DNA from: Erythrobacteraceae bacterium
Lineage (GTDB): Bacteria; Pseudomonadota; Alphaproteobacteria; Sphingomonadales; Sphingomonadaceae
Assembly: GCA_024642545.1 (NCBI GenBank)
Contig: JAHEAW010000009.1
Coordinates: 1-36,555 of the forward strand
Direction: 5' to 3'
DNA length: 36,555 bases
Shown: positions 9,692-33,221 of the stretch, in pieces
Layout: every line of letters begins with the position of its first letter
Position numbering within the stretch: the first letter of the stretch is position 1
Notes under the pieces: generated by a model
What the model saw: only the letters and a program-made list of their open reading frames with translations
Database searches by the model: none
Told to the model about the DNA's origin: nothing
Translations under genes and position numbers: made by a program

Positions 9692-9745
9692 CCGGGCCTG
9701 CGTTATCGCCCAAGGTTTCCCGGTCGCCGGGGAAGTGATTCACCG

Positions 9746-9840: not shown

Positions 9841-9842
9841 AG

Positions 9843-9950: not shown

Positions 9951-10000
9951 GCGGTGAAAATGTCTTTGCGGGCATTGCCGTGTCTTTCGGGAACTGTGAT

Positions 10001-11143: not shown

Positions 11144-11511
11144 GCCGCTATTTTACCGAAGAACACGAATGGATCGATGTCGAAGGTGATACCGCCACGG
11201 TCGGCATTACCGATTACGCGCAGGAACAATTGGGCGATATCGTGTTCGTCGAAGTGCCCGATGTTGGTACCATGGTCGACAAGGGCAAGGATGCCGCAGT
11301 GGTCGAAAGCGTCAAGGCTGCCAGCGACGTCTATGCGCCAATTTCGGGCGAAGTGAAGGAAAGCAATGCCGCGCTCGAAGAAGACCCGGCGCTGGTCAAC
11401 ACGTCGCCGGAAGAAGACGGCTGGTTCTTCAAGCTGACCATTGGTGACAAGTCGCAGCTCGAAGGGTTGATGGATGCCAAGGCCTATGCGGCGTTTGTGG
11501 ACGGGCTGTAA
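11140..11511 (+). CDS. gcvH: Glycine cleavage system H protein
   Basis: The 123-residue lipoyl carrier that shuttles the aminomethyl intermediate between the P, T and L proteins. The lipoyl-accepting residue is Lys59 in the ESVKAASD block, flanked by the [19 protein letters not shown] strand region and the hairpin loop VYAPISGEV. Length and sequence are standard for the family. The ATG at 11140 overlaps the gcvT stop, so the two are translationally coupled. Lipoylation depends on LipA/LipB or LplA encoded elsewhere; no gcv-linked dihydrolipoamide dehydrogenase is present in the window. Confidence 0.97.
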
Positions 11512-11531
11512 TCAGCCTTGGCAAATTAGGG

Positions 11532-11547
11532 TCCGGCCCGCGCCGGA
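11532..11547 (+). other. GC-rich hairpin in the gcvH-gcvPA spacer
   Basis: TCCGGC (11532-11537) and GCCGGA (11542-11547) form a perfect six-base-pair stem with a CCGC loop in the 54-base gap between gcvH and gcvPA. It is not followed by a T tract, and an AAGGA ribosome binding site for gcvPA comes five bases later, so it is not an intrinsic terminator. It may set relative levels of GcvH and GcvP by blocking 3' decay. Function is inferred. Confidence 0.5.
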
Positions 11548-11565
11548 TAGCAAGGAATACACTTA

Positions 11566-14549: not shown

Positions 14550-16565
14550 ATGCCAAGCAGCAGTTCAGGCAGTTTCATTCGCCGCGGCTGGCGCAATGTC
14601 CGCGAGGCGGGGCCGCAACGGCTGGTGCTGACAGTTCTGCTGGTGATCGCAGCGCTGGTGCTGGCGCGCTTTAGCTGGTTCCTGCCCATTAGCGGCGATG
14701 CTGAGCGGGCGATGTATGACCTGCGCAGCTTTGTGAATGCGCCGCATGTCGGGCAGGACAAACGCATCCTGCTGGTGGTCTATGATGACAAGACGCTGAT
14801 CGACGCGCGCAAACGCTCCCCGCTTGATCGCGGCCTGTTGGCCCGGGCGCTCCAGAACCTTGACACCATGGGGGCCAAGGCAATCGGGATCGATATTCTC
14901 TTCGACCAGCCGCAAAATGAAGATCCGCAACTGATCAGCGCCTTGCGGGCGATGAAAACGCCGGTCGCGGTCGCTTATGCAGAACAAGCGACCAACGCAT
15001 CCGACATCGTTTACGAGCAGCAACAATATTTGAAACAGTTCATGACGCAGCTGCGTGGCAGCAATGCGCACCCTGCCAGCATCCGGCTCGACAATGCATT
15101 TGGCGTGACGCGCAAATGGCCCTCGATAGAGGCGGGATTGCCCCCGCTGCTGGGCCGCGAAATGCTGATAGAAGCCGGGCAAGGGTCCAAGGCAATGCCC
15201 GGCTATCAGGGCTCGCTGCGTTTTCGCCAGCCTGAGTTTGAAGGTCAGCCAGTCTTTTCCGAATTGCGGATCGACTTGTTTGCTGACCCGGAAATGGCCC
15301 CGTTATTGGCGTCGCAAGTCAAGGGCCGCTATGTGCTGATCGGGGGCGATCTGGTCGATGTCGACAGGGTTGAAACGACCTTTAGCGCCAGTACCGGAAT
15401 CCAACCGCCAGGTCTGGCGGTGCATGCCTCCATGCTGGCGCAAATGCTCGATGGGGCTGCCTTGCCCGCACCTTTGCCAGCCAGTTTGTGGATTTTGGCA
15501 ATACTGGTGGTGGCGCTGGCGGTGCTTACCGGTCTGCTCGAATGGGGCAATTGGCGGATCTATCTGCTGCTGCTGGTGCAATTCGTCATGATGCTGGGCG
15601 TGCCCTTTGCCATGCAGGCGCGCGGGGTTGATACATACGGTGTTCCTGCTGCCGGGTGGCTGATCGGTTGGGTGGTTGCCTTCGCCTCGGTCACCTCGGC
15701 TGCGCGCGCGGCTGGCGCGGTCCAGCGTAATTTCGCGCAAGGGGCATTGGGTAAATATCTGCCGCGCGAAATGGCCCGCGAAATCATCGACAAGCCTGAA
15801 CTGCTCTCGCTGCACGGCGAAAAGAAGGCGATTTACGTGCTGTTCAGCGATCTGGAAGGCTTCACCAAGATGAGCCATGCGCTGGAGCCGGAAATGGTTG
15901 CCAAGTTGCTCAATCGATATCTTGAAAGTTTGAGCCAGGTGGTGCTTGATCATGGCGGCGTCATTGATAAGTTTGTCGGCGATGCAGTGGTTGCGTTCTG
16001 GGGCGCGCCCATCGCCAAGCCCGATGATGGACGCCGCGCGGCGCAGGCAGGTTATGCGATCTGGAAAGCCGGTGAGGCGTTTCGTACTGAGGTGGCTCAG
16101 ATGGGACGCAAATTGCCGCCCGTGGGCAAGACCCGGGTTGGCCTCCATTACGGGGAAGCGGTGGTTGGCAATTTCGGCGGGGAAACGCGCATTCAATATA
16201 CCGCGCTGGGGGACAGTATGAACACTGCTGCACGGCTCGAAGCGGCCAATAAGGCACTCGATTCCAGTGTGATGGCCAGCCGCGAATTTGCCGAACGGTC
16301 GGGCCTCGACTGGTGGCGTCCAATGGGCCGGGTGGTCCTGCGCGGCCGTGCCAAGCCAGTTGAAATCATGGAGCCGACACCGGGGTTTCCGGACGATGAC
16401 CGCAAGTTGCTGATCAAGGCCATGATCCTGGCTGACAGCGATATTGCAGCTGCGATTTCGGTGGTGGCAGAAGTCGCTGCCAAACATGGCGATGACAAAG
16501 CGATCGCAAATCTGCTACACCGACTGGCAAATCTCGGCGGAGGGAATGCATATGTCTTGGGTTAG
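14550..16565 (+). CDS. CHASE2-domain class III adenylate cyclase
   Basis: A 671-residue membrane signalling enzyme predicted to make cAMP. Layout: TM helix at about 25-46, extracytoplasmic CHASE2 sensor at about 50-305, three TM helices at about 311-332, 335-355 and 364-385, then a cytoplasmic class III cyclase domain at about 424-610. Metal-binding Asp434 (FSDLEGFT) and Asp478 (VGDAV) are present, as are transition-state residues Asn558 and Arg562 (NTAAR). Lys474 and Thr551 occupy the positions that favour adenine over guanine. GGGGTGGAG stands before the ATG. The following gene overlaps its end by 14 bases. Its ligand is unknown. The neighbouring locus contains two cyclic-nucleotide-binding domains and a CpdA-like phosphodiesterase, so a local cAMP circuit is plausible. 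Confidence 0.93.
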   Translation: MPSSSSGSFIRRGWRNVREAGPQRLVLTVLLVIAALVLARFSWFLPISGDAERAMYDLRSFVNAPHVGQDKRILLVVYDDKTLIDARKRSPLDRGLLARALQNLDTMGAKAIGIDILFDQPQNEDPQLISALRAMKTPVAVAYAEQATNASDIVYEQQQYLKQFMTQLRGSNAHPASIRLDNAFGVTRKWPSIEAGLPPLLGREMLIEAGQGSKAMPGYQGSLRFRQPEFEGQPVFSELRIDLFADPEMAPLLASQVKGRYVLIGGDLVDVDRVETTFSASTGIQPPGLAVHASMLAQMLDGAALPAPLPASLWILAILVVALAVLTGLLEWGNWRIYLLLLVQFVMMLGVPFAMQARGVDTYGVPAAGWLIGWVVAFASVTSAARAAGAVQRNFAQGALGKYLPREMAREIIDKPELLSLHGEKKAIYVLFSDLEGFTKMSHALEPEMVAKLLNRYLESLSQVVLDHGGVIDKFVGDAVVAFWGAPIAKPDDGRRAAQAGYAIWKAGEAFRTEVAQMGRKLPPVGKTRVGLHYGEAVVGNFGGETRIQYTALGDSMNTAARLEAANKALDSSVMASREFAERSGLDWWRPMGRVVLRGRAKPVEIMEPTPGFPDDDRKLLIKAMILADSDIAAAISVVAEVAAKHGDDKAIANLLHRLANLGGGNAYVLG

Positions 16566-17277
16566 AGGCCTCTCGATTTCGGCGGCAGCGACAGGGGCAT
16601 TGTTCGCGTTAGTCCCTGCCGAAGTCTCTCATGCAGATGTGGTGGTTGCCGCCAGCGGGCCTTCAGCAGCGCAGTTTCCAACCGGCAAGAAGCTGGGCAG
16701 CGCGGATGAAATAACGCTCAAGGTGGGCGATTCCGTGACCGTGCTGGGCGAGACAGGAACACAAGTGATCTCTGGTGCAGGCATTCACCGGGTCGGTGCG
16801 CGCGGGATCGCGAAACGGTCCACCTTTGCCTTGCTTACGCGGCAACGCGCGGCGTCCCGGGTCCGCACCGGGGCGGTGCGCGGCACGCTGACTGACCAGC
16901 CTGTGACACAGCCTAATATCTGGTATGTCGATGTCGCAAAATCGGGCACCATCTGCGAACCGGTCGATACTGCGGTACAATTGTGGCGGGCGAACACCAT
17001 TGGTGCGCCGACCTATGATATCACCGGCGATGCATCGCCGGGGCAGATGCATGTCGCCTTTGCCGATGGCGCGATGACCACTGACTGGGATCTGGCGGGT
17101 ATGCCGCTGGCAAATGGCGCCACCTATTCGATTGCAGCACCGGGCGATGGACCGGCCAGCAAAGTGACCTTCGCTCTGATTGATACCGCACCAGCCACAC
17201 CGGAAGAATTGGCCGAGGCGCTGATCAGCAGGGGCTGCACTGGCCAGCTTGATCTGCTGGCCGCTGCGATGAAGTAG
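16552..17277 (+). CDS. Secreted protein of unknown function, FecR-like segment
   Basis: A 241-residue exported protein. A signal peptide is evident (MSWVRGLSI then a hydrophobic run, likely cleavage after SHA at residue 28). A beta-rich segment at about 50-90 (KVGDSVTVL, TGTQVISGAG) resembles FecR-type domains, but the match is weak. Two cysteines, Cys135 in ICEPVDTAVQLWR and one in RGCTG near the C terminus, could form a disulfide. The ATG at 16552 is preferred because GGCGGAGGG ends eight bases before it; an ATG at 16546 is in frame. It overlaps the cyclase gene by 14 bases, so it is probably co-translated and may work with the CHASE2 sensor in the periplasm. No firm function. Confidence 0.78.
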   Translation: MSWVRGLSISAAATGALFALVPAEVSHADVVVAASGPSAAQFPTGKKLGSADEITLKVGDSVTVLGETGTQVISGAGIHRVGARGIAKRSTFALLTRQRAASRVRTGAVRGTLTDQPVTQPNIWYVDVAKSGTICEPVDTAVQLWRANTIGAPTYDITGDASPGQMHVAFADGAMTTDWDLAGMPLANGATYSIAAPGDGPASKVTFALIDTAPATPEELAEALISRGCTGQLDLLAAAMK

Positions 17278-17378
17278 CAAAGGCGGAGAAATAACCGGCC
17301 CGGCCTTATTGGCAAACCGGCCTTTTGTCTGCACAGTGCAGGCCGGATCCGGGGTTACCCAGCGGGGAGGGGTGACGC

Positions 17379-18752
17379 ATGAAGCTGATCGCTGGAAGAA
17401 CCTTTGCATTGGCAGTGCTGCTGTTTGCGGCGCTTTCGCTGGCCGACACGTTCGCCACCAGCGGCGCCAATGCGGCGAGCAGTCACGGTCAATATGAAGG
17501 GGTGGCGACGTGTGCGGGATCGACCTGCCACGGCCGTGCAGAGGGCAATGGCGCAGTTGTCCGGCAGGATGAAATTGCCAGCTGGCAGGACCCATCGTCA
17601 TTAAGCGGCGCGCACAGCCGTGCCTTCGCGGTCCTTTCCAGTCCGCGGGGCAGGACTATTGCGGCCAATCTTGGCCTGGGTTCAGCTGCGGATGCCCCGG
17701 CCTGTCTGGGCTGTCATTCCACCAATGTGGCGCAGACGGATCGTGGGCCGCGGTTTCTGACCAGTGACGGGGTTGGCTGCGAAAGCTGCCATGGACCCGC
17801 ATCCAGCTGGATCGCCGGCCATTATGCAAAGGGGACGACCCATGCAGGTAATGTGGCCAATGGGCTGGTCCCGCTCGAGCGGCCGCAAGTGCGCGCGAAG
17901 CTCTGCCTAGATTGCCATTTCGGCAGCACCAATGCGGGCCAGTTTGTGACGCATGCGATGATGGCTGCCGGACATCCGCGTGTGTCGTTCGAACTTGATC
18001 TGTTTTCTGCGCTGCAGCAGCATCATGATGTCGATAGAGACTATATCGCGCGCAAAGGGCGACCTGACAGTGTGCAGCTATGGGCGGTGGGGCAGGCAGA
18101 AGCTGTGCGGCGTTCCACCAGTCTGTTCGCCAAGCCGAATTATGCCGTGACGGGCGTATTTCCCGAATATTACTTCTTCGATTGTCACAGCTGCCATCGC
18201 GAAATTCAAGATGGGCCGGACGCGCAGCGCACCTTTGTGACCAATCCGGGGCGGCCGATCACTTTCGGACAGGCACCTTATAATGACGAAAACATGATCA
18301 TGCTTTCGGCAGTGTCGCACGCGCTTGAACCTGCACACGCCGCCAGCTTTGATGCAGCGAGCGTGGATTTCCACCGCTCTATGAGCATTGGCCGCGATGC
18401 AGCGGTGCAAGCCGCTGGCAGGTTGCAGGCGCAAGCAGGCGCGCTGTCCGATGCACTCGCCAGCCGCCCATCTGACAGGAATGATGCCTTTACTGTGATC
18501 GCTGCGATTTCAGGCCATGCGACTGCGCCGCGCTTCACAGATTATGAGGGTTCGTCACAGGCCGTAATGGCGGTGGATACGCTGCTCAATGCGCTGGTGC
18601 GCGAAGGGCGCGTCACAGTGGGTGCGGCGGCGGGCATCCGGGCGAATATAAACCGGGCCTATGCCGCAGTCAAAAGCCCGCAGACTTACCGTCCGGCTGC
18701 CTTTCGTGCGGCTCTAGCGCAGGCAACCGGCGCGATTGAGGCGCTGAAGTAA
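17379..18752 (+). CDS. Periplasmic multiheme c-type cytochrome (c554-like)
   Basis: A 457-residue exported cytochrome with an N-terminal signal peptide (about 1-33, ending GANAAS). Four canonical heme sites CXXCH start at residues 109, 134, 176 and 269, and a fifth, unusual C-X4-CH site (CAGSTCH) spans 45-51. The spacing and the TCHG start resemble the cytochrome c554 family, which accepts electrons in periplasmic chains. The C-terminal 170 residues lack heme motifs and are helical. A strong GCGGGGAGGGG precedes the ATG. A 101-base gap separates it from the preceding gene, leaving room for a promoter, whereas its TAA shares a base with the next ATG (TAATG). It likely passes electrons within the cytochrome cluster; partner unknown. 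Confidence 0.9.
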   Translation: MKLIAGRTFALAVLLFAALSLADTFATSGANAASSHGQYEGVATCAGSTCHGRAEGNGAVVRQDEIASWQDPSSLSGAHSRAFAVLSSPRGRTIAANLGLGSAADAPACLGCHSTNVAQTDRGPRFLTSDGVGCESCHGPASSWIAGHYAKGTTHAGNVANGLVPLERPQVRAKLCLDCHFGSTNAGQFVTHAMMAAGHPRVSFELDLFSALQQHHDVDRDYIARKGRPDSVQLWAVGQAEAVRRSTSLFAKPNYAVTGVFPEYYFFDCHSCHREIQDGPDAQRTFVTNPGRPITFGQAPYNDENMIMLSAVSHALEPAHAASFDAASVDFHRSMSIGRDAAVQAAGRLQAQAGALSDALASRPSDRNDAFTVIAAISGHATAPRFTDYEGSSQAVMAVDTLLNALVREGRVTVGAAAGIRANINRAYAAVKSPQTYRPAAFRAALAQATGAIEALK

Positions 18753-20752
18753 TGCCGCGCAACCTGGGCCATTATTTATGCCTTGCCGCCGCACTCTCTC
18801 TGGCTTCGTGTGGGGGCGGCGATAACAGCAACGGTTATGGGCCGCCCACCACCGGCGCAACAGCCGCCCCGCCGCCTGTGGGCGGGGTCTTTACGGTTCC
18901 CGGACAAGAATCTCTCTCCGCAGCGGATGTCCAGCAGCTGCTGGCGCAAGCGATTGGTGAGGCCAAGGCCCGCAATCTTCCTTCGACCATTGCTGTCACT
19001 GACCGGGTCGGCAATGTACTGGCGGTATTCGTCATGACCGGAGCCCCGGCTTTGACCAAGGTCAGCAGCCGCCAGATTGGCGGCATGGCGGCAGCCGGAC
19101 AGACAGTTGGGCTGCAAGGCGCGATGATTCCATCAACCACAGCGGCCATCGCCAAGGCAGTGACGGGGGCGTATCTGTCGAGCGGCGGCAATGCCTTTTC
19201 GACCCGTACCGCCAGCCAGATCGTGCAGCAGCATTTCCCGCCTGCGCCGACCACGATCGGGCTTGAAAGCGGGCCGCTGTTCGGGGTCCAGTTCAGCCAG
19301 CTTCCCTGTTCGGATTTGAGCCAGCGGTTCACTGGCAGCGGCACGGGCGCGTTTATCGGACCCAAACGCTCTCCACTTGGGCTGGCCGCAGACCCGGGTG
19401 GATTTCCGGTTTACAAGAACGGTGTGCTGGTCGGCGGAATTGGCGTGGCGGGGGACGGCGATTACGGATTTGATCCTAACACGCTCGATATCGACAATGA
19501 TGCCGAAGAAGCCATTGCCCTGGCTGGCACGCAGAATTTCACCCCGCCGGTGGAAATCCGTGCGGACCGCATCCCAGTCGATGGGACCAGCTTGCGCTAT
19601 AGCGATATGACCGCCGCCGATCTTGCCCCGCTGGCAGCCAATTTTGCCGCAGTGAATGGCGCAGCGGGCGGGCTGGTGGCGGTGACCGGCTATACCGACG
19701 GCACCTTGCGGCCAGGGACCATTTACGGAACCGAAGCGTCGGGCATCCGCCCGAGCAAGCCGAGCGAATTTGCCAATCCTGATGCCTTTGTGCTGTCCGA
19801 TGGAATGGGCAATGACCGTTATCCGATCAGGGGCGGCACCGATGGGGCGTCGGTCGGCCAGCCACTGACCGCTACTGAAGTGCGCGGCATTCTGGAGGAA
19901 GCTTTTGCGGTCCTGTCGCATGCGCGCGCGCAAATTCGTCGCCCGCTCGACAGCCGGATGCAGGCGTCGGTCAGCCTGGTTGATACCAATGGCCAGATAT
20001 TGGGGGTCTTGCGGTCCCCTGATGGCCCGATCTTCGGCACCGATGTGTCACTGCAAAAAGCACGTACGGCGACCTTTTTTTCCAGCAAGACCGCCGGTGA
20101 TCAGTTGCTTGCCACACCGGTGCTGTCGGGCGTGACAAATATTCCTGCCTATGTCAGCCGGGTGCGCAATTTTCTGCATGATCCTAACGCGCTGACGGGC
20201 ACTTTTGCCTTTGCAGACCGTTCCGGCGGCAATCTGTCCCGGCCCTATTTTCCTGATGGCGAGGTTGGGCCGATTTCGGGGCCGCTGTCTGTTGCCAGTC
20301 CCAATCTGTTCAGTCCCTTTGCGGTCGGCTTGCAGACCGATCTGGTGACCCCCAACATATTGGCGCATCTGGCTTATGTGCAGAGCAATGGCGCAACGGC
20401 GGATACACCCAAAGGCTGCACTCAGCTGCCCGATGCACCGACCGGCAACAAGCGGATTGCCAATGGCATTCAGGTGTTCCCCGGTTCGGTCCCGATTTTT
20501 CGCGGCGACCAACTGGTTGGCGGCATCGGCGTATCAGGGGACGGGATTGATCAGGATGACATGGTCAGCTTCCTTGGTCTCAACAATGGCGGTTTGCGCG
20601 TGGGCGGCGGGATCGGCAATGCGCCCAAGGCGATCCGCGCGGACCAGATTGTGATCAATGTGAATGGGCGGCTGGTACGGCTGCGGTTCGTCAATTGCCC
20701 GTTCGCACCGTTTCTCGACACTGCTGATCAGAATGTGTGCGAAGGGCTGTAA
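18752..20752 (+). CDS. Lipoprotein with two GlcG/HbpS-like (haem-binding) domains
   Basis: A 666-residue lipoprotein: lipobox LSLASC with Cys20 as the acylation site, followed by a Gly/Pro-rich linker. Two related halves (about 55-300 and 370-650) each carry the GlcG/HbpS/DUF336 pattern: SAADVQQLLAQAIGEAKA with IAVTDRVGNVLAVF in the first, and TATEVRGILEEAF with VSLVDTNGQILGVLRS in the second. Both halves also repeat GGIGV(A/S)GDG. HbpS-type domains are known to bind haem, and such a protein amid cytochromes may scavenge or sense haem or dock on them. It starts and ends with one-base TAATG overlaps, so it is translated with its neighbours. Membrane face cannot be told; Gly at +2 does not suggest inner-membrane retention. 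Confidence 0.82.
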   Translation: MPRNLGHYLCLAAALSLASCGGGDNSNGYGPPTTGATAAPPPVGGVFTVPGQESLSAADVQQLLAQAIGEAKARNLPSTIAVTDRVGNVLAVFVMTGAPALTKVSSRQIGGMAAAGQTVGLQGAMIPSTTAAIAKAVTGAYLSSGGNAFSTRTASQIVQQHFPPAPTTIGLESGPLFGVQFSQLPCSDLSQRFTGSGTGAFIGPKRSPLGLAADPGGFPVYKNGVLVGGIGVAGDGDYGFDPNTLDIDNDAEEAIALAGTQNFTPPVEIRADRIPVDGTSLRYSDMTAADLAPLAANFAAVNGAAGGLVAVTGYTDGTLRPGTIYGTEASGIRPSKPSEFANPDAFVLSDGMGNDRYPIRGGTDGASVGQPLTATEVRGILEEAFAVLSHARAQIRRPLDSRMQASVSLVDTNGQILGVLRSPDGPIFGTDVSLQKARTATFFSSKTAGDQLLATPVLSGVTNIPAYVSRVRNFLHDPNALTGTFAFADRSGGNLSRPYFPDGEVGPISGPLSVASPNLFSPFAVGLQTDLVTPNILAHLAYVQSNGATADTPKGCTQLPDAPTGNKRIANGIQVFPGSVPIFRGDQLVGGIGVSGDGIDQDDMVSFLGLNNGGLRVGGGIGNAPKAIRADQIVINVNGRLVRLRFVNCPFAPFLDTADQNVCEGL

Positions 20753-22629
20753 TGTCGGCGGGCATTCTCCTTCCGCTGATCTTGCAAGCGACCCTGCCGG
20801 CCGAAGTTCCGCCCGCGCCGCCACCCGCGCCGCCACCCGCTTTGCCATCTGCTGAAACCAGCGCGCAACCTCCGGCTGCCGATCCGGGCGATGTGCCGCC
20901 GGTTGACAATCAAGTGATCGATGGCCGCCGCAGGCCAGGCTATGTCGAACTGCTGCCCGAACCGGTTACGCAGACCAATACAGGCGCAGTTCGGGCACCG
21001 CCACCTGAAGCCTTTCCTACGGATCAAATTCCGATCCCTGATCGCTGGCGGCTGATTCAGTCGCTGGGGCTGGTCACTGAACATTGGTGGGACCCTTACC
21101 ATCAGAACACTTATAAGGGTGACCGCCCGATCAACCGGGCCAAGGTGCCGTGGCTCCCGATCAAGGGGGACGACTGGTTCTTCATTGCCAATGCCATCAG
21201 CGATACAGTGGTCGAACCGCGCAGTTTCCCGATTCCGGTGGGGGTTCAGACCACGCAGGATCCGGGCCGAACAGACGTGTTCGGCAATACGTCCAGTCTT
21301 GCCTTGTCGCAGACCTTCATCATGGGAGCAGCGCTGGTCAAGGGCAGCACCACCTTTATGCCGCCGCATGTCGAATATCGCGCGACGCTGGCGTTCAACG
21401 TCAATTATGTTGATGTGCCGGAAAAACGGGTACTGTTTGTCCAGCCGAGCAAACCGTCACAGCGGCTCGACCATTTCGTGGGCGTGCAGGAATTGTTCGT
21501 CGATTACCATATTCGCAACACATCCGAGCGGTTCGATTTCGATTCTGTGCGGGTCGGGATTCAGCCGTTTCAGGCCGATTTTCGTGGCTTTCTGTTTCAG
21601 GATCAGCAGCTGGGCATCCGTTTGTTTGGGACGCGCGATGACAATCGCTTCCAGTATAATCTCGGGGCTTTCTGGCGGCTGGAGAAAGATACCAATTCCG
21701 GCCTCAACGATATCACGCAGTCACCGCGCAAGGATTTCCTGTTTGTTGCCAATGCCTATCGGCAGGACTTCCTGATCCCTGCGCTGACCAGTGAAGTGGT
21801 GTTTGCGTATAACCGCAACCGTGAACGCAATGATATCCAGATCGACAAGAATGGTTTTCCTGTGCGCCCGGCATTGCTCGGCACGTTGCGCGGGCGCGAA
21901 TATGATGTGTTTTATCTTGGCTATAATGTCGATGGTCGGATCGGCCGGATCAACCTGACCGCCAGCGCGTATGGCGCGCTGGGGGAAGACCGGAACAGCT
22001 TTTTTACCGATCGCCCGGCCAAAATCCGCGCTTTCTTTGCTGCTGCTGAAGCCAGCTATGATCGGGATTGGATGCGCTTTCGCTTGTCCGGCGCGTGGGC
22101 CAGCGGCGATGGCAACCCATACGATAATACCGAAGGCGGCTATGATGCGGTGCTGGAAAACCCGATCTTTGCCGGGGCTGACACATCATACTGGATTCGC
22201 CAGACTATCCCCTTTGCTGGGGGCGGGCGGGTTATCAGTGTCAATGGCCGCAACGGTATCTTGAATTCGCTGCGCAGTTCCAAGGAACAGGGGCAGTCCA
22301 ACTTCAACAATCCGGGCCTGATCCTGGGCGGTGCGGGGGCCGATTTTGATCTGACGCCTGAATTTCGCCTGTCCGCCAATGCCAATCATCTGTGGTTCGA
22401 AAATACTGCCACGCTGCAAGTGCTGCGCAATGAAGGAAGCATCCCCAAGGATATCGGATGGGACCTGTCTGCCGCCGCCATCTGGCGGCCCAGGGCGACG
22501 CAGAATATCGTCATGCGCTTGTCAGCTGCCACGTTATTATCGGGGGATGGATTCCGCGATCTGTTCGACAATCTTGGGCACAGGCGCAATTATTATTCCG
22601 TGCTTGCCAATGTGATCCTGACGTACTGA
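20752..22629 (+). CDS. Predicted outer-membrane beta-barrel protein (porin-like), cytochrome-associated
   Basis: A 625-residue exported protein. The N terminus is a short signal-like hydrophobic stretch followed by a Pro/Ala-rich linker. From about residue 95 onward the sequence shows alternating hydrophobic and polar residues rich in Tyr, Phe, Arg and Asn, typical of beta-barrels (for example LAFNVNYVDV, FQYNLGAFWRLEK, LSANANHLWF). It ends ...VILTY, an aromatic C-terminal residue expected of a BAM-recognised beta-signal. No heme motif is present. It sits between a c554-like cytochrome and a decaheme cytochrome with one-base overlaps on both sides, the arrangement expected for the barrel of a porin-cytochrome conduit. 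It does not look like the MtrB family by any motif I know. Role is inferred. Confidence 0.8.
   Translation: MSAGILLPLILQATLPAEVPPAPPPAPPPALPSAETSAQPPAADPGDVPPVDNQVIDGRRRPGYVELLPEPVTQTNTGAVRAPPPEAFPTDQIPIPDRWRLIQSLGLVTEHWWDPYHQNTYKGDRPINRAKVPWLPIKGDDWFFIANAISDTVVEPRSFPIPVGVQTTQDPGRTDVFGNTSSLALSQTFIMGAALVKGSTTFMPPHVEYRATLAFNVNYVDVPEKRVLFVQPSKPSQRLDHFVGVQELFVDYHIRNTSERFDFDSVRVGIQPFQADFRGFLFQDQQLGIRLFGTRDDNRFQYNLGAFWRLEKDTNSGLNDITQSPRKDFLFVANAYRQDFLIPALTSEVVFAYNRNRERNDIQIDKNGFPVRPALLGTLRGREYDVFYLGYNVDGRIGRINLTASAYGALGEDRNSFFTDRPAKIRAFFAAAEASYDRDWMRFRLSGAWASGDGNPYDNTEGGYDAVLENPIFAGADTSYWIRQTIPFAGGGRVISVNGRNGILNSLRSSKEQGQSNFNNPGLILGGAGADFDLTPEFRLSANANHLWFENTATLQVLRNEGSIPKDIGWDLSAAAIWRPRATQNIVMRLSAATLLSGDGFRDLFDNLGHRRNYYSVLANVILTY
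20812..20840 (+). repeat. Short tandem repeat encoding a Pro-Ala linker
   Basis: The 12-base unit GCGCCGCCACCC occurs twice in tandem (20815-20826 and 20827-20838) with a partial unit at either end. It encodes the APPP-type linker of the barrel protein, just behind the signal peptide. Such in-frame repeats can change copy number by slippage and so alter linker length. Confidence 0.7.
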
Positions 22630-26702: not shown

Positions 26703-27201
26703 CGGCTCACTCGTTACCGTGCGTTTGGAAATTCGGCCATTCAGGACAACCGACATTGCGGCTTTGGTCGTGATGTTCAGCGATCCGATGGTCGCCCGAT
26801 ATGTCGGCGATGGCGGACCCTTGCCGCAAGATGACGCAGCGCTGTGGGTCAAGCGGTCGAACGAAAATTTGCAGCACTATGGTTATGGTACCGGGGCAGT
26901 CATCGAGCGCGCGAGCGGCATACTGATCGGCTGGGCAGGTTTTGCCAGGCCACAGGATGGGCCGGAACAAATCATCTACGGACTGGCTAAAGCATATTGG
27001 CGACAGGGATTTGGAACCGAGATTGTCGAAGCGCTTGTGCAGTTCGCCGGAAGGCGGGGACTTGACTGTGTTCTGGCAACGGTTGACGCGGCGAACCGCA
27101 ACTCAATCCATCTGTTGCGCAGCCAAGGGTTCGCACTGTTCGAACAGGATTTTGGCGGGGAAGATGGCTGCGACCTTTACCGGCGGAGTATGGCGCAGTG
27201 A
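26692..27201 (+). CDS. GNAT-family N-acetyltransferase (RimJ/RimL type)
   Basis: A 169-residue acetyltransferase that moves acetyl from acetyl-CoA to an amine of a protein or small molecule. The opening VRLEIRPFRTTDI, the strand IERASGILIGWAGFA and the acetyl-CoA loop YWRQGFGTEI (Arg104-Gln-Gly-Phe-Gly) are typical of the RimJ/RimL branch. The likely start is a GTG at 26692, which overlaps the decaheme gene by 11 bases. Substrate unknown. Co-translation with the cytochromes may be incidental or may mark one of them for acetylation. It closes the plus-strand operon; the next gene is convergent. Confidence 0.85.
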   Translation: MISNGSLVTVRLEIRPFRTTDIAALVVMFSDPMVARYVGDGGPLPQDDAALWVKRSNENLQHYGYGTGAVIERASGILIGWAGFARPQDGPEQIIYGLAKAYWRQGFGTEIVEALVQFAGRRGLDCVLATVDAANRNSIHLLRSQGFALFEQDFGGEDGCDLYRRSMAQ

Positions 27202-27238
27202 TTACGCAGACAGAGCAGGATCAGGGTCAAAACTTTGC

Positions 27239-28087
27239 TTATTCCCGCTCGGCAAACATACTCTGGATCATTGGTTGCAGGTTCTGGGTATAGGATGCCA
27301 GCACGTGCCACTTGTGAACCATTTCGTAATGGGTCACGAGTGATTTGCCGTCCCATCGGTGGACTGCGTATGTCGCCGGTTCGGTCGTGATCAAATTGCG
27401 TCCGTCGGGCGTGTCGGGATCAATATCGCGCAGGTCCAGCGCCACTAGCGGGGCAACCGAAGGCGTCACCGACAGCGGGATGCCGTGAATGGAGGTATGC
27501 ATCGGCCGGTGCAGATGACCGCAGTGGATCGCAAGGATCTGGCGGTGCCCTGCGACCGCCTTACCAAAACGCAACATCCAGTCCTCATCCTCACCCGGGT
27601 CCATCCAGCCGATCCCTGCAACCACGGGCGGGTGGTGCATGAATATCAGCGTTGGCGTGTCGGGATGCGCGTCAAGCTCAGCGGATAGCCAATCGCGGCG
27701 GTGTTCGCAAAACGCGCCCCCGTGCCGCCCCGGCTCCAGCGTATCGAGAAAAATGATCCGCAGGCCCTCGCGCTCGATCGCATAATGGACAAAGCCGCCC
27801 TCCGTCGGCGTAGCGGGAAAGGCATTGAGCAACTCTTCACGTGTGTCGTGATTGCCAACCATCGGGTAGACCGGGAAGGGACAGTCCGCCAATAATGCGG
27901 CGGTCTTCTCGAAACTTTCGCGGTCACCGTGGTCGGTCAGATCGCCTGACAGTACCAGCATATCGATTGGGTTGGGGCCGGCAATGATCCGATCAAGCGT
28001 GCTGCGAAAGCGGATACGGTTCAGCTCCTCCGGCAGTTCATCGGGATCGAAACCGATATGAATATCGGTCATCTGTGCGATCAGCAC
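27239..28087 (-). CDS. CpdA-like metallophosphoesterase (possible 3',5'-cAMP phosphodiesterase)
   Basis: A 282-residue calcineurin-like phosphoesterase. Dinuclear metal-site residues are all present: Asp8 and His10 (MTDIHIG), Asp49 (SGDLTDHGD), Asn79-His80-Asp81 (VGNHDTR), His151 (MHHPP) and His188/His191/His193 (HCGHLHR). The GDLTDHG and HCGHLHR forms and the length fit the class III cyclic nucleotide phosphodiesterase (CpdA) branch, although relatives act on other phosphoesters. The GTG at 28087 is chosen because it falls one base after the stop of the upstream cytochrome gene and directly precedes the LIAQMTDIH strand. As last gene of the minus-strand operon that also encodes cNMP-binding domains, it may hydrolyse cAMP made by the nearby cyclase. 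Substrate is inferred. Confidence 0.87.
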   Translation of the reverse strand: MLIAQMTDIHIGFDPDELPEELNRIRFRSTLDRIIAGPNPIDMLVLSGDLTDHGDRESFEKTAALLADCPFPVYPMVGNHDTREELLNAFPATPTEGGFVHYAIEREGLRIIFLDTLEPGRHGGAFCEHRRDWLSAELDAHPDTPTLIFMHHPPVVAGIGWMDPGEDEDWMLRFGKAVAGHRQILAIHCGHLHRPMHTSIHGIPLSVTPSVAPLVALDLRDIDPDTPDGRNLITTEPATYAVHRWDGKSLVTHYEMVHKWHVLASYTQNLQPMIQSMFAERE

Positions 28088-28088
28088 G

Positions 28089-29876
28089 TCAGGGACCCTT
28101 GCGCCAGAGCATGGCAACTTTGTTCATGGCGTCATGGCCGTTCTTGGCCGGTAGCATGCGCTGCGGATCGCCCATCGTGCCGGGGTGATAGGAATGGCAC
28201 ATGGCGCAGCTGGAAGGCACTTCGGCGGCGGCATCATCGGGGCCCATATGACAGGTGCGGCAGGTCTTTATTCCGGGCAGCAGGACATCGGTCGCGGACT
28301 TGGAGAGATTGGCCTGGTGGCAGGTGGTGCATTTTTCCTGCTTATGCGCGCTATGGTCAAACCAGCTATGGACCAAATAATGGTCAGGGATATTGACCGG
28401 CATCACATCCAGCTTGCCATTGGTAGTGACCGGGATGTGGCATTCTCCGCACACGCCGTCAGGCTGCATCGCGCGGTTGATGGCCACCAGTGAACGCACT
28501 GGCGGGCCGAAATTCTGGCGGTAGAGACCGCTCTGGCCGTAAACACCCGGCGCGCGCCGCCCGGCGATCAGACCATTGCTTGCCTGCTGATGCGGCGCCC
28601 GGTCCATCGCCATCAGATCCGCCCGCATTTGTTCGACATCGCCGTGGTGGAGCGTGCGGAAAGTTGACCCGACCTTGTCATAGACCAGACTGTGGCAGGC
28701 CCCGCAGTCCTGCTCCATCGAAATCGGTTTGAAGGCGGTGCCATCAGCGGTGGGCTTGTGGCAATCAGAGCAATCCAGCGCTGCGCCATAGCCTTTGGCC
28801 GCACTCAAAGTGCCCGCCATCTGGGCCACCGCGTTGGTCTTCGACAGATGCATTTCATGCGGGAAACGCAGCCCATTAAATTCCTTCGGCTTGCCGTCCA
28901 GCGATACGCGCTGCGGCTTGATCTGGCCGGGGGCAGTAAACAAGACCGGCTCGAACTGCGGATGAGCGGTACCAAAATCAGCGGCATTGCCAAGCGAAGT
29001 ATCAGTCAGCCGGGTATCGAGCGTGCCATGACAATCGGAACAGAACTTTTGCGGCGTCGGCTCCATCCGGCCAGCGCCTTCATGTTCGCGGTGGCAAGTG
29101 GTGCAAGCCTGTGGGCCTTCCTTGCCGAAGGCTTCGGCCACGTTCCATTGCAGCTTGTCTCCCAGTGACATTGGCCCCTCAGCAATACTCAGCTTTGACT
29201 TGGCGGCATGATGGCCAATATCCTTGTGGCAGCTGAGGCAAGTGGTATCGCGCACCGATTGGAACGGCTTGACGTGGCAGGCTTGGCAATTGTCTTCCAA
29301 GCCGTGATGCGCCAGACTCAGCGCACCTGGGCTCCAGCTTGCATCCATCAGGACGCCATCGGAAATTCCTGCCTTGGGCGGTGTGGGAGGATGGCTGAGG
29401 TTGGACGTAATCGGCACGATCAGGAACGCGAGCAGAACAAGGCCCAGGCCAATCCATGCCATCGCCCGTTTGCCAGGCAATTTGCCGCCCAGCGAAAAGC
29501 CGCTCAGCGCATCGCTGGAAACCACTTGCTCGCTTGCTCGCTGCACGGTGATGGTAATGACGCCGCCGCCGCCTTGCGCAATTGCCAGGCGGTAGGAGCC
29601 AAAGCCAAGCTCAGCCCCTGCTTCAGGGTGGAACTGGGCCGCTCGGATGGTTTTGCCATCGAGCGTGAAACCCAGCGTGCCGGCAGAATCGATTCGCAGC
29701 TTGCCGGTCGCGAGCCGGTCGATCCGCGCGTGATATTGCTCCACGGCAAGATCGGGCAGGTGAATGTCATTATCGGACCTGCGGCCAATGGTGATGGTTT
29801 CTTCAGCAACTTCCCGGTCGCGCACGATCTCGCGCCCGTCTGCGGTGGTGTCGATAGTGCGGATGAGGAAAGTCAT
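28089..29876 (-). CDS. FHA-domain, membrane-anchored decaheme c-type cytochrome
   Basis: A 595-residue fusion. Residues about 20-105 form an FHA fold (GRRSDNDIHL at 31-40, then YHARI at 48-52), presumably cytoplasmic. One TM helix at about 138-157 follows, then a periplasmic part with ten CXXCH sites starting at residues 197, 213, 258, 279, 369, 391, 476, 516, 539 and 557. FHA domains normally bind phosphothreonine through a conserved Arg and Ser; Arg32 is kept, but the Ser of the usual SRxH motif is replaced (VEQYHA), so phosphopeptide binding may be lost or altered. It follows the cytochrome b-like gene by 10 bases in one operon and probably takes electrons from it into the periplasm. The orientation and route are inferred. 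Confidence 0.92.
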   Translation of the reverse strand: MTFLIRTIDTTADGREIVRDREVAEETITIGRRSDNDIHLPDLAVEQYHARIDRLATGKLRIDSAGTLGFTLDGKTIRAAQFHPEAGAELGFGSYRLAIAQGGGGVITITVQRASEQVVSSDALSGFSLGGKLPGKRAMAWIGLGLVLLAFLIVPITSNLSHPPTPPKAGISDGVLMDASWSPGALSLAHHGLEDNCQACHVKPFQSVRDTTCLSCHKDIGHHAAKSKLSIAEGPMSLGDKLQWNVAEAFGKEGPQACTTCHREHEGAGRMEPTPQKFCSDCHGTLDTRLTDTSLGNAADFGTAHPQFEPVLFTAPGQIKPQRVSLDGKPKEFNGLRFPHEMHLSKTNAVAQMAGTLSAAKGYGAALDCSDCHKPTADGTAFKPISMEQDCGACHSLVYDKVGSTFRTLHHGDVEQMRADLMAMDRAPHQQASNGLIAGRRAPGVYGQSGLYRQNFGPPVRSLVAINRAMQPDGVCGECHIPVTTNGKLDVMPVNIPDHYLVHSWFDHSAHKQEKCTTCHQANLSKSATDVLLPGIKTCRTCHMGPDDAAAEVPSSCAMCHSYHPGTMGDPQRMLPAKNGHDAMNKVAMLWRKGP

Positions 29877-29886
29877 GCTGCCGCCC

Positions 29887-30768
29887 TCACCAGTAGAAAA
29901 AGACGCTGACTATGTGCGCGGTCAACGCAGCCAGCAAAGCGATGGTTGCAGGGATATGGATGTAGAGCCACACTTCGAGCAGCGCCTTGATCCGCATATG
30001 ACGGCGGATCTGATCAAGCTGTGTCTTGCGTTTGCCCAGCAGTGCGCGAACCTTGTCACGCGGGTCGTCACTGCCAACCGGGCGCGACCAGTCGGATGCG
30101 AAATGGGCCAGCGCCGTAGTGGTGGTGCAGCCGCGATAACGCGCCAAAAGCCGTGCACCGAGGCCCCAGCCAAACGTATCCTGGTCCAGCGCCGCAATGA
30201 CCAGATCCGCTTCTTCGCGGTTCAGAGGCTGAGCCGCGCTGTGCAACTGCCGGTCAATCGCGGCGAGCGCTTCGACCATTTCCTTGCGGGTCATTTCACG
30301 GGAATTATTGCTGAGGGCCGCGGGCAGGCTGGCGTAGACCGATATGCCGTATATGCCCGATAGGATCACCACCATCATCAGCCCGTATGCGAGCGTGTGG
30401 ACGTTCCAGCCGAATTGGAAGCCGGTATGCAAAGTGCCGATCACGATCAGTGCCAGCCCAAGATAGACGTGCGCAGAAGTCCACGCCTTGAGCGACCAGC
30501 GGCCTTCAGTCATATTGCGTTTGCGGATGCCGAGCAGGGCCAACCACACAATCAGCACTGCGCCGATAGTCCCCAGCGTATAGCCATACCAACTGCCGCC
30601 ATTGGGGTGCGGGGTCACATCGGACCAGAAATAGCCAAGGATTGCGATCAGGCACACCGCCCCAGCAATCTTGAGCCAGCGGAACCGCTTATGCGCCAGG
30701 AAACCTTCATGGTCCGAGCTTTGGCGCCGTTCGCGAAAACCTTGGTCCTGTCCGGGCACACTCGCCAT
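29887..30768 (-). CDS. Cytochrome b-like membrane protein
   Basis: A 293-residue inner-membrane protein with about five TM helices (30-48, 62-81, 99-119, 124-146, 267-290). Histidines at 100, 114, 124, 271 and 285 sit near helix ends in positions suited to ligate b hemes across the membrane. A long soluble loop (about 150-265) separates helix 4 from helix 5. No domain beyond a general ferric reductase/cytochrome b fold can be named. Its ATG overlaps the TAA of the FAD/FeS gene by one base and the FHA-decaheme gene follows, so it is well placed to carry electrons from a cytoplasmic flavin/FeS partner to a periplasmic cytochrome. Confidence 0.82.
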   Translation of the reverse strand: MASVPGQDQGFRERRQSSDHEGFLAHKRFRWLKIAGAVCLIAILGYFWSDVTPHPNGGSWYGYTLGTIGAVLIVWLALLGIRKRNMTEGRWSLKAWTSAHVYLGLALIVIGTLHTGFQFGWNVHTLAYGLMMVVILSGIYGISVYASLPAALSNNSREMTRKEMVEALAAIDRQLHSAAQPLNREEADLVIAALDQDTFGWGLGARLLARYRGCTTTTALAHFASDWSRPVGSDDPRDKVRALLGKRKTQLDQIRRHMRIKALLEVWLYIHIPATIALLAALTAHIVSVFFYW

Positions 30769-33221
30769 TATTCAACATCCTCCGCCAGCTTGGTGAAGGT
30801 CAGGAATTTTTCGGGTGACACGCGGATGGCAGCGCCAGTCGGGCAGGCGCGCACGCAGGCTGGCCCGCCTTCAATCCCCGAACACATATCGCATTTGATC
30901 GCCGACTTGCCGGTTTCCATCCCCCGCTTTGCAGCTTCATGCTTGCGCCAGCTATAGCTCGCCTCACCCGGGCCAGGTCCTTTGCCGAACAGCAGCCAGC
31001 TGAGCAAAGATGGCTTGGGCGGCGGGGCTGCATCCATCCGGATCACGCCGTAGGGGCAGTTGCGCTGGCAATTGCCGCAGCCGATACACGTATCATCGAT
31101 AAAGACTTCGCCGTCCGGGCCGCGCTTGATTGCATTAGGCGGACAATCGGCCATGCAATGGGGATGTTCGCAGTGACGGCATGACGTCGGTACATGCAGA
31201 TGGGCGTAAGTCCGCCCAGCCTCGCGGTCGAGCCGGGACAACCCCTCATGGCTGTCGGCGCAGGCTTTTTCGCAATTGTCGCAGCCGACACACAGCTTTT
31301 CGTCGATCAACAGCACATCGGTTGCCTCGCCAATACCATTGTCGATCAGGAACCGCGCGGTTTCCGAATACATATCAACCACGCTGCCGAAGCTGTCCTT
31401 GCGGCTTTCAATGAAGGAATTGATCTCGCGGCGAGATGCCATTTCCGCCATCGCCTTTTCGCGCAAGGCAGGCTTGCGGGCGAGCAACCGGACGAATGCC
31501 TCGCCCGGGAACCGGACAACCTCGCTCTTGATGGCGGCCTTCACTGTCGCGGTCCGCGCGGAGCCGTCAACCACGGCCATTTCGCCAAAATAGGTCCCTG
31601 CTGGCAGATAGGAGAGGAACACGGGCGCGCCGCCGATCTGCTTTTCGACGATCATCGAACCGCGGCGGATCACATAGACGTCCTTATCATCGGCGCCTTC
31701 TTCGATCACGACTTTGCCAGCGCGGACATCGACCACTTCGGCAGCGGCAACCAGTTCAGCCACATCATCGCGCATCAGGCCAGAGCCGAACATTTGCAGC
31801 AATTGCCGCTCGATCGAGATCGCATTGACCGCGCGCGCGGCGCTGGGGGTGGTCGCGATCAGTTTAAGCGCGGCGGTCCGGCTCAATTCAATCACGATCG
31901 TCGGTTCAGCCGCACGGATGGTCGAGCCCCGGCGACGGCCTGAAATAAGCCCGACTTCACCAAAGATGGAGCCTTGCTCGATCGATACAGTCACTGACGG
32001 GTCGTCAGGATTGACTTCGACCAGCACCGACCCTTCGGCAATACCGAACATTGATGAGCCCGGATCGTTGCGTTCGAAAATCTCTTCGCCCGCTTCATAA
32101 CCACTAACCGTGCTGTCAAGCATCAGCTCGCGCATTTGCAGCGGGGAAAGGTCCTGCAGGATGACCACATTCGCGCGGAAGGTTTCGAGCCACTGATCAA
32201 CCGAGCGCACACCGGGCAAAGCGTCAAACTTCTGGGCCAGTATGGGTTCGTCAGCCGGTTTGAGATCTAGGTTCCCATTGAGGAACTCGATCACATCATA
32301 GCCCTGGTTCATGCAATGCTTGATCAGCGGGTAACCCGCCAGCGCGCCAATGACATGAATGCCCTGCTTGGTGGTTTCAAAGCTGGGGGACAATTTGGGG
32401 AATGCGCCTCGATCCCCGCCTGTAAATTCGATCCCGCAAGCTTCGACAAAGCCGCGCGGGGGCTGCGAGCCGGTGCGCGCGATGATCCGGTTGCACGGGA
32501 TCGTCTCCTGCCCGTCGCGGGTGTCGAGCACCAGTTCATCAGCACGCACTTCAGCCGGAGATGTTTCGCGCCGGACAATGATCCGGCCGGCTGCCTCTGC
32601 TTCTTCGAGCAGTGTGACATTGGCCGCCTTGGCGCGGGCAAAGTCAGACCCGCGATTGAGGATAGTGACGATGTTGTTCTGCTTGGGATCAGCGGCGAGG
32701 CCAAGCGCGTTTTCGATCCCGGCATCGCCTGAACCGACCACGGTGATATGTTCGTCGAAATATTCGCCCGGATCGTCCAGCTGATACTGGATCAGCGGCA
32801 AATCGGCACCGGGGCAGCGCAGCTTGTTGGGGTTGCCCTGCGTGCCGATGCCCATGACCACCGCCTCGGCATGGATCGGTTCGCCGCCCTTGATCTCGAT
32901 CACGAATTTGCCGGTTGTGCCGCTGATGGCGGTCACTTCGGCGTTGAGCCTTACGTTGATCTTGCCCGCAGCAACCTGCTCGTCCCAGGTATCAAGGATA
33001 AACTCCCGCTTGCCGGCGTCAAAATCCAGATCCGAGCGCAGCACCAGATTGCTGGGCGTCGCCATCACATGCTTGCCCTTCTGGTATTTGAAGATGGTAT
33101 CGCTGAGGTGATCGGTCTTTTCGATCAGAATATGGGTCATGCCCACCTTTGCCGCGCGCGCCGCTGCGCTCAGGCCCGCTGGGCCTGAACCGATAACGGC
33201 GACACGGTACTGTTCTGGCAT
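30768..33221 (-). CDS. FAD oxidoreductase fused to two cyclic-nucleotide-binding domains and a 4[4Fe-4S] ferredoxin module
   Basis: An 817-residue cytoplasmic fusion. Residues about 5-315 are a thioredoxin-reductase-like pyridine nucleotide oxidoreductase: FAD motif GSGPAGLSAA at 11-20 and NAD(P) motif GSGDAGIE at 163-170. No redox-active CXXC is seen in this part. Two CRP-type cyclic-nucleotide-binding domains follow at about 355-470 and 480-595, with phosphate-cassette motifs FGEVGL (420-425) and FGEMAVVDGSARTATV (545-560); the second is the more canonical. Residues about 635-805 carry ferredoxin cysteine motifs beginning at 644 (CVGCDNCEKAC), 681 (CRHCEHPHC), 712 (CIGCGNCQRNC) and 777 (CDMC...C...C), as in NrfC/DmsB-like subunits. 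GGGGGG lies before the ATG. It leads the operon with cytochrome b and decaheme partners. Cyclic-nucleotide gating of electron transfer is inferred. Confidence 0.92.
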   Translation of the reverse strand: MPEQYRVAVIGSGPAGLSAAARAAKVGMTHILIEKTDHLSDTIFKYQKGKHVMATPSNLVLRSDLDFDAGKREFILDTWDEQVAAGKINVRLNAEVTAISGTTGKFVIEIKGGEPIHAEAVVMGIGTQGNPNKLRCPGADLPLIQYQLDDPGEYFDEHITVVGSGDAGIENALGLAADPKQNNIVTILNRGSDFARAKAANVTLLEEAEAAGRIIVRRETSPAEVRADELVLDTRDGQETIPCNRIIARTGSQPPRGFVEACGIEFTGGDRGAFPKLSPSFETTKQGIHVIGALAGYPLIKHCMNQGYDVIEFLNGNLDLKPADEPILAQKFDALPGVRSVDQWLETFRANVVILQDLSPLQMRELMLDSTVSGYEAGEEIFERNDPGSSMFGIAEGSVLVEVNPDDPSVTVSIEQGSIFGEVGLISGRRRGSTIRAAEPTIVIELSRTAALKLIATTPSAARAVNAISIERQLLQMFGSGLMRDDVAELVAAAEVVDVRAGKVVIEEGADDKDVYVIRRGSMIVEKQIGGAPVFLSYLPAGTYFGEMAVVDGSARTATVKAAIKSEVVRFPGEAFVRLLARKPALREKAMAEMASRREINSFIESRKDSFGSVVDMYSETARFLIDNGIGEATDVLLIDEKLCVGCDNCEKACADSHEGLSRLDREAGRTYAHLHVPTSCRHCEHPHCMADCPPNAIKRGPDGEVFIDDTCIGCGNCQRNCPYGVIRMDAAPPPKPSLLSWLLFGKGPGPGEASYSWRKHEAAKRGMETGKSAIKCDMCSGIEGGPACVRACPTGAAIRVSPEKFLTFTKLAEDVE

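Follow-up and report, generated by a model that had tools for sequence, protein, structure and literature searches.

A cluster of cyclic-nucleotide and electron-transfer genes fills positions 14550-33221 of the window, that is, of the whole stretch of 36,555 nucleotides analysed here, which is contig C51 of a 194-contig, 2.48-Mb genome of the Sphingomonadales. The cluster encodes a CHASE2 class III adenylate cyclase, a predicted class III cyclic-nucleotide phosphodiesterase (PDE), multiheme cytochromes and a redox protein, designated REDOX, in which two cyclic-nucleotide-binding domains (CNBDs) stand between a flavin domain and a ferredoxin. Within the Sphingomonadaceae, a large and mostly aerobic bacterial family, the redox, decaheme, PDE and cyclase genes are inherited together. 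They almost certainly constitute a cAMP-linked electron-transfer module of some kind, and it seems somewhat more probable than the opposite that cAMP acts as an allosteric gate on the NAD(P)H-driven flow of electrons through this module toward the outer membrane. The features of the cluster are as follows.

14550-16565, plus strand: CHASE2 class III adenylate cyclase, the putative writer (Pfam, catalytic residues)
16546-17277, plus strand: exported FecR-like protein whose translation is probably coupled to that of the cyclase (presumed start at an internal ATG)
17379-18752, plus strand: cytochrome c554-like multiheme protein with four CXXCH motifs, one CX4CH motif and a signal-like hydrophobic N-terminus
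18752-20752, plus strand: HbpS-like haem-binding protein of the conduit cluster
20737-22629, plus strand: porin-like, putative outer-membrane protein of the conduit cluster (judged from position and character)
22629-26702, plus strand: surface decaheme cytochrome with LVIVD repeats (open reading frame 22458-26702, probable ATG start at 22629)
27239-28087, minus strand: predicted class III cyclic-nucleotide PDE resembling SpdA, CpdA and Rv0805; it closes the operon and probably begins with the GTG at 28087
28089-29876, minus strand: FHACYT, with an FHA domain (probably on the cytoplasmic side), one hydrophobic segment and a decaheme cytochrome
29887-30768, minus strand: CYTB, membrane cytochrome b with weak b561 similarity and four hydrophobic segments
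30768-33221, minus strand: REDOX, with a YpdA/TrxR-type NAD(P)H flavin domain, tandem CNBDs and a four-cluster ferredoxin
31797-32159, minus strand: CNBD1 of REDOX (residues 355-475)
31407-31796, minus strand: CNBD2 of REDOX (residues 476-605)
30822-31313, minus strand: ferredoxin part of REDOX (residues 637-800), 16 Cys, four [4Fe-4S]

The two gene groups of the cluster are convergent. The plus-strand group runs from the cyclase through the FecR-like, c554-like, HbpS-like and porin-like genes to the LVIVD decaheme gene, and the minus-strand group comprises REDOX, CYTB, FHACYT and PDE, in that order. The REDOX stop and the CYTB start overlap as TAATG, and a GTG start of PDE sits one base past the FHACYT stop; the four minus-strand genes therefore look like one operon. 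Because of the position of this GTG, the likely start of PDE is at 28087 and not at the mechanically assigned TTG at 28117. The nearest named relative of REDOX belongs to Allopontixanthobacter sediminis (89% identity, locus L003, strain KCTC 42453).

Co-Inheritance within the Family

Several queries were run against one set of 119 family genomes with a completeness of at least 90%. At E ≤ 1e-100, REDOX was found in 42 of them and the LVIVD decaheme cytochrome (E ≤ 1e-60) in the identical 42 (Fisher test, 4e-33, kinship being ignored here and below). PDE (E ≤ 1e-15) was present in 42/42 REDOX-positive genomes versus 4/77 REDOX-negative ones (6e-28), and a class III cyclase of any kind (PF00211, E ≤ 1e-5) in 42/42 versus 6/77 (4e-26); orthologues of the window cyclase (at least 47% identity) occurred in 35/42 and 2/77, respectively. 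The preliminary description of the cluster had made its proposal depend on whether cyclase, PDE and redox genes are conserved together, and this co-conservation goes far beyond chance, including cases where a non-orthologous cyclase has taken the place of the orthologue. In-frame stops, at least one per match, interrupt 14 of the 42 top decaheme matches in the search output, perhaps because the query frame starts about 57 residues before the likely start; the open frame under each match nevertheless spans 1315 amino acids or more.

All seven REDOX-positive genomes without an orthologous cyclase (G007, G017, G019, G050, G070, G092 and G124) possess another one. The replacement cyclase is the direct neighbour of PDE in G092 and G050, lies at most 10 kb from a cluster gene in G007, G017 and G070, and is not near the cluster in G019 and G124; five of the seven genomes thus have it no more than 10 kb from REDOX, PDE or the decaheme gene. 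Four within-genus contrasts are concordant when any class III cyclase is counted (G136 positive and G056 negative, G137 and G057, G007 and G114, G019 and G121, respectively). In each of the genera concerned (g50, g51, g3 and g15), one member has REDOX, decaheme, PDE and cyclase, and one is in none of those lists, the absences being read from complete match lists and the membership of G121 in the sample being taken from its handle number. The independence of the co-occurrence rests on these contrasts and on the spread of REDOX over 33 of 91 genera.

The distances, measured between hit starts, vary with the gene pair. REDOX and PDE lie at most 7 kb apart in 39 of the 42 genomes, REDOX and the decaheme gene at most 15 kb apart in just 20, and a cyclase is found at most 40 kb from REDOX, PDE or the decaheme gene in 33, with a 40-kb cut-off that was picked after the data were seen. 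By the same cut-off, the cyclase is linked to a cluster gene in 14/14 REDOX-positive genomes that have a single cyclase. At the named loci, all contigs of sufficient length preserve the order REDOX-CYTB-FHACYT-PDE; PDE is seen in 72 of 80 loci, and the remaining eight contigs end before or inside its expected place. These loci (L003-L082) extend at most 10 kb beyond REDOX and therefore cannot show a cyclase placed as in the window; the three cyclases within them (L062, L068 and L074) are other cyclases, on the far side.

Predicted Reader, Writer and Phosphodiesterase

The Pfam search assigned Pyr_redox_3, two cNMP_binding stretches (106.4 bits together, over the cut-off) and 4Fe-4S domains to REDOX. 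The flavin domain resembles the YpdA/TrxR-type structure 7a7b (Z 26.4, rmsd 7.1, 308 residues), and the ferredoxin part has 16 ferredoxin-type cysteines, corresponding to four [4Fe-4S] clusters. The phosphate-binding residues Glu422 and Arg431 of CNBD1 are invariant (81/81), and those of CNBD2 nearly so (Arg556 in 81/81, Glu547 in 79/81); both Glu/Arg cassettes are also kept in 8/8 distant REDOX proteins with 42-66% identity. The earlier recognition of two CNBDs in the redox protein was therefore correct. A structure search with the whole REDOX model listed only flavoproteins, and for this reason the CNBD pair was modelled alone (pLDDT 89.5). The pair model matched MloK1 with cGMP (Z 19.0, 1.6 Å, 119 residues; the top match of CNBD1), PKG II CNB-B with cGMP (Z 18.5, 2.1 Å, 144 residues) and SthK with cAMP (Z 17.9, 1.8 Å, 132 residues), and PKA/PKG tandem domains made up the top Foldseek rows. 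Given the conserved pockets and the modelled fold, the REDOX CNBDs may bind cAMP, although a match to ligand-bound CNBDs does not itself amount to binding.

Both domains of the cyclase, CHASE2 (89.1 bits) and Guanylate_cyc (50.4 bits), score above the curated cut-offs, and hydrophobic segments lie near residues 25-43, 312-330 and 337-355. Residues D434, D478, K474, T551, N558 and R562 are invariant in 35/35 aligned rows (the window, 32 of 36 other orthologues, G016 twice and one 30% homologue from G017). We take Asp434 and Asp478 to be the metal-binding residues, Lys474 and Thr551 the purine-selecting pair, presumably of the adenine type, and Asn558 and Arg562 the transition-state residues. 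The description of a CHASE2 cyclase with intact catalytic and adenine-selecting residues thus holds, and the enzyme probably makes cAMP. It is the sole class III cyclase of its genome; a second CHASE2 protein encoded there (G000:C23:23558-24010) is not a class III cyclase. At most loci fetched together with their flanks, a FecR-like gene lies with the orthologous cyclase; the FecR-like protein has no Pfam match, and its name derives from inspection by eye and from its place next to cyclase genes elsewhere. In the window, these two genes stand directly before the conduit genes, a placement that may mark the input side of the system. According to the accessible part of PMC13001267, the CHASE2 cyclases of S. 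meliloti reportedly respond via the outer-membrane barrel NsrA.

The PDE contains a Metallophos domain (56.5 bits, over the cut-off), and all seven metal ligands are invariant in 70/70 rows (the window and 69 of the 72 loci with a PDE match, at a coverage of at least 85%). Its nearest solved relatives are the phosphohydrolase 2dxl, which we take to be GpdQ, and Rv0805. It scores below the NCBIfam cut-offs of both CpdA (PRK11148; 80.3 bits, cut-off 225) and SpdA (NF050112; 135 bits, cut-off 400), and SpdA outscored CpdA in 8/8 PDEs scanned (122-145 bits versus the SpdA cut-off of 400). The earlier placement of this gene at the end of the redox operon is confirmed, but the label "CpdA-like" is loose, since the protein is nearer to SpdA and passes neither cut-off. 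A class III cyclase occurs in 46/46 PDE-positive genomes versus 2/73 PDE-negative ones, which fits a PDE acting as an eraser of cAMP or as an insulator of the cAMP signal. Four genomes (G016, G058, G102 and G110) have PDE without REDOX. The scanned neighbours of PDE in these genomes have no relation to the module and encode aldehyde dehydrogenase, DAHP synthase, MgtE, topoisomerase, DNA glycosylase and one protein without a Pfam match; the exception is G110, where a cyclase gene lies near PDE and a FecR-domain protein is encoded beyond the cyclase.

Cytochromes and the Predicted Outer-Membrane Conduit

The following counts come from alignments whose rows were chosen by a coverage of at least 85%. 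CYTB has six invariant histidines (79/79 rows) and four hydrophobic segments, and the ten CXXCH motifs are kept both in FHACYT (75/75) and in the LVIVD decaheme (51/51). A sequence search of the PDB with the latter found no solved relative at E ≤ 0.01. The FHA domain of FHACYT retains Gly31, Arg32 and His49 in 75/75 rows, and the position that we take to be that of the usual phosphothreonine-contact Ser is mostly occupied by Glu, Asp or Asn. It is possible that this domain represents a second, altered cytoplasmic input to the same electron wire. Besides the two decahemes in the window, the conduit cluster includes the porin-like protein, a putative barrel without a Pfam match. The domain anatomy suggests a path from NAD(P)H via FAD, iron-sulphur clusters, haem b and a decaheme to an outer-membrane conduit. 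Electron flow is probably directed outward along this path, as this direction is downhill.

Plasmids and Distribution beyond the Family

REDOX was found on 12 of 72,556 plasmid records, all of them from Sphingobium and mostly near-copies, which are not independent; the same 12 records hold the cyclase. In Sphingobium herbicidovorans MH, the module and the cyclase are located on the megaplasmid pMSHV (789944-837366; locus L224 from 794865), which is typed as conjugative and may be a route for horizontal spread of the module. The cyclase occupies 789944-791971 of this plasmid, and the REDOX and PDE proteins of the strain are WP_231568103.1 and WP_037469323.1, respectively. Among 398 genomes of the phylum, REDOX (E ≤ 1e-60) occurs in 15, including eight of the family, two of other families of the class and five of other classes. 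In the seven genomes outside the family, which contain eight REDOX loci, CYTB and FHACYT follow REDOX at seven of the eight, and G497 carries the entire conduit in one gene run. G142, a member of another class, has two REDOX loci (L184, 7472-10789 and 12455-14959); at one of them, a cyclase gene lies about 2 kb upstream, and no CYTB or FHACYT match follows. In G505 (L182, 4126-6759, minus strand), a protein that by eye resembles Na+/H+ antiporters and carries a C-terminal CNBD is encoded next to the LVIVD gene.

Proposed Mechanism and Its Alternatives

In the proposed mechanism, the CHASE2 cyclase would sense a periplasmic cue and make cAMP, which would bind to the two CNBDs that, in the REDOX chain, follow the NAD(P)H/FAD domain and precede the four-cluster ferredoxin. 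Much as happens in PKA regulatory subunits or cyclic-nucleotide-gated channels, binding would change the position of the ferredoxin with respect to the flavin, and this shift would open or close the flow from NAD(P)H via FAD, 4x[4Fe-4S] and membrane haem b to the FHA-anchored decaheme, from which electrons would leave through the porin/decaheme conduit to the outside. PDE, produced from the same operon as the reader, would destroy cAMP and so reset the system, or would guard the signal against 2',3'-cyclic nucleotides. A reason for gating the protein itself, and not just its transcription, is that the cell would be drained if a wire without a gate connected NAD(P)H to the exterior. The stronger version, according to which the PKA-like tandem CNBD between flavin and ferredoxin is a direct cAMP switch and class III cAMP signalling in the Sphingomonadaceae exists essentially for this purpose, falls slightly short of an even chance in our estimate. 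The write-read-erase set of the preliminary description is upheld in its writing and reading parts, which are real and intact; the erasing part is tentative, since S. meliloti SpdA, of the closest characterised family, has no detectable activity on 3',5'-cAMP.

Several observations weigh against gating of electron flow by cAMP. The Fisher values of co-occurrence, which span 4e-33 to 9e-21, ignore kinship. The orthologous cyclase is present without REDOX in G016 and G102, beside a FecR-like gene and, in G102, also adjoining CHAT and ShlB genes. The ferredoxin half of REDOX is modelled with a pLDDT mostly below 50, which leaves the geometry of gating hypothetical. CRP-like proteins with the canonical pocket motif occur in four of the seven other single-cyclase genomes (G042, G062, G105 and G136), and relatives of L098, a CRP-like protein of the window genome, in 12/42 REDOX-positive versus 3/77 REDOX-negative genomes (Fisher 2e-4). 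Outside the family, where some contigs end close by, a PDE (>45 bits) is encoded near REDOX only in G393; cyclase genes near REDOX are restricted to G393 and one G142 locus out of two, and the G393 cyclase is without the transition-state Asn. As the distant REDOX loci are mostly without PDE and cyclase, the CNBDs are probably older than the local partnership with these enzymes. The family nearest to PDE by sequence, SpdA, appears to be 2',3'-specific. According to the accessible part of PMC4222275, SpdA of S. meliloti cleaves 2',3'-cAMP with no detectable activity on 3',5'-cAMP, and the specificity of class III PDEs is not readable from sequence.

It might be that a CRP-like transcription factor carries the cAMP signal to the conduit genes and that the CNBDs of REDOX are structural or inconsequential binders. 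This is in line with the CRP-like proteins and the enrichment of L098 relatives just mentioned, and with Shewanella, where the link of cAMP/CRP to metal respiration is transcriptional, as far as the accessible part of the literature tells. Such a route is nevertheless unlikely, since both REDOX pockets are near-invariant, unlike a vestige, CRP-consensus sites in the window are not above chance (7 found versus 11.0 expected), and a relative of L098 is missing from 30/42 REDOX-positive genomes. Two of the five PF00027 matches in the window genome are in REDOX, and the full canonical pocket is missing from all three remaining CNBD proteins: one is of the FNR type, with N-terminal cysteines and without the pocket, one is degenerate, and the cassette of L098 keeps Glu and Arg, with Val replacing the following Ser/Thr (by eye). 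In the seven other single-cyclase genomes, 38 of 39 non-REDOX CNBD matches were examined, the domain not being placeable for a few weak ones (e.g., L221, L225, L227 and L230); among the matches examined, no canonical-pocket CRP-like protein was seen in G005, G053 and G085. Independence from CRP, as originally suggested, fits the window genome and is plausible for its clade, but the four genomes with a canonical pocket speak against its generality, and the enrichment of L098 relatives in REDOX-positive genomes disfavours a complete separation from CRP. A 617-aa protein of G105 (L203, contig C3, around 226469) with a canonical CNBD pocket motif outside REDOX is possibly another cAMP reader.

An alternative concerning the erasing step alone, and one that can be compatible with gating by cAMP, is that PDE acts as an insulator, as proposed for SpdA, removing 2',3'-cAMP from RNA decay, while 3',5'-cAMP is removed otherwise. 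The better match to SpdA in 8/8 PDEs favours this, and SpdA also lies at a CHASE2-cyclase locus and spares 3',5'-cAMP, according to the accessible part of PMC4222275. By the NCBIfam test, however, none of the eight proteins is a SpdA, and PDE keeps all metal ligands, whereas purified SpdA is reported in the same source to be without metal. The pattern of PDE and cyclase genes is eraser-like, but their co-occurrence is expected under both readings; overall, the insulator is a tentative possibility that we consider the less probable one.

It is also conceivable that the cyclase is part of a CHAT/FecR/two-partner-secretion locus whose only tie to the conduit cluster is their adjacency on the same mobile region. 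In L107 (4002-20000), from a genome without REDOX, CHAT, the CHASE2 cyclase, a FecR-like protein, a ShlB transporter and a frame of more than 2000 amino acids are encoded together; CHAT and a frame of more than 2000 amino acids surround the orthologous cyclase in L127 (57-12637), and L134 has a similar run of frames, judged from sizes alone. The full arrangement is found only in the first of these three loci. Both clusters also share the same Sphingobium plasmid records. However, any class III cyclase tracks REDOX, linked or unlinked, non-orthologous cyclases accompany it as well, directly beside PDE in two genomes, and no two-partner-secretion gene lies between cyclase and conduit in the window, which makes mere hitch-hiking quite improbable. 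The same degree of doubt applies to binding of another ligand (cGMP, a nucleoside or a dinucleotide) by the CNBDs, with an indirect association with cAMP. The top structural match of CNBD1 is a cGMP-bound protein, and trypanosome PKA regulatory subunits, found among the Foldseek matches and "cAMP-independent" by title, show that the fold can switch its ligand; against this stand the canonical Glu/Arg pocket kept in both CNBDs and the Lys/Thr pair of the cyclase.

Comparison with Known Systems

The closest parallel to the signalling part is the CyaD1/D2/K-SpdA-Clr system of S. meliloti, which, in the accessible parts of the sources, likewise combines alphaproteobacterial CHASE2 cyclases with an SpdA-type class III PDE and a reader of cAMP, spdA and clr lying at the cyaD1 locus (PMC4222275; PMC13001267). 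Its reader is a CRP-type transcription factor, whereas the conserved reader of the window module is a flavin/iron-sulphur electron-transfer protein, accompanied by a multiheme conduit. Mtr respiration of Shewanella similarly ties cAMP to a porin-decaheme electron route but, in the accessible literature, controls it transcriptionally through cAMP/CRP. The electrons of Shewanella enter via CymA, not via a CNBD flavoprotein. MtrCAB and MtoAB are porin-decaheme conduits, and the window cluster also combines a putative porin-like protein with decaheme cytochromes; it differs from them in having its own gene set, with HbpS-like and c554-like partners and an LVIVD decaheme without a PDB match.

CNBD pockets that gate an effector are found in PKA regulatory subunits, PKG, MloK1, SthK and the Rv0998 acetyltransferase, among which the REDOX CNBDs have their best matches in sequence and fold; the effector in these proteins is a kinase, a channel or an acetyltransferase and not an electron-transfer chain. 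The flavin domain of REDOX is like YpdA/Bdr and ferredoxin-NADP+ reductases of the TrxR type, and its ferredoxin is like four-cluster subunits of the HycB/DmsB type. The fusion of flavin domain, tandem CNBD and ferredoxin was absent among the solved-structure and family matches listed, and no description of this gene set was found among the literature matches listed.

The known action of cAMP on bacterial respiration is exerted via transcription factors. If the proposed mechanism is true, a cAMP switch inside the entry enzyme of the conduit would provide fast, post-translational control of electron export, and the near-restriction of class III cyclases in the family to conduit-bearing genomes would have an explanation. 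Such a switch would also direct attention to a surface electron-transfer route that has been little studied and occurs in more than a third of the sampled genomes (42/119). In the stronger version, the cAMP circuit of the family would in the main be an electron circuit rather than a transcription regulon.

Neighbouring Features

A gene for a CcmH/CycH-type TPR protein (33363-34307, plus strand) is divergent from REDOX and adjoins it in 76 of 80 loci; the product is a possible accessory and perhaps an assembly factor of multiheme proteins. None of the ten terminator-like sites listed as consensus matches lies between the cyclase and the c554 gene. A promoter-like consensus match at 17180-17209 precedes the c554 gene, so the conduit may have its own promoter. 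At the gathering score, Rfam matched one tRNA and one glycine riboswitch, both outside the module. In the window, the riboswitch is followed by glycine-cleavage genes (9745-14489, plus strand), with the P-protein split in two parts.

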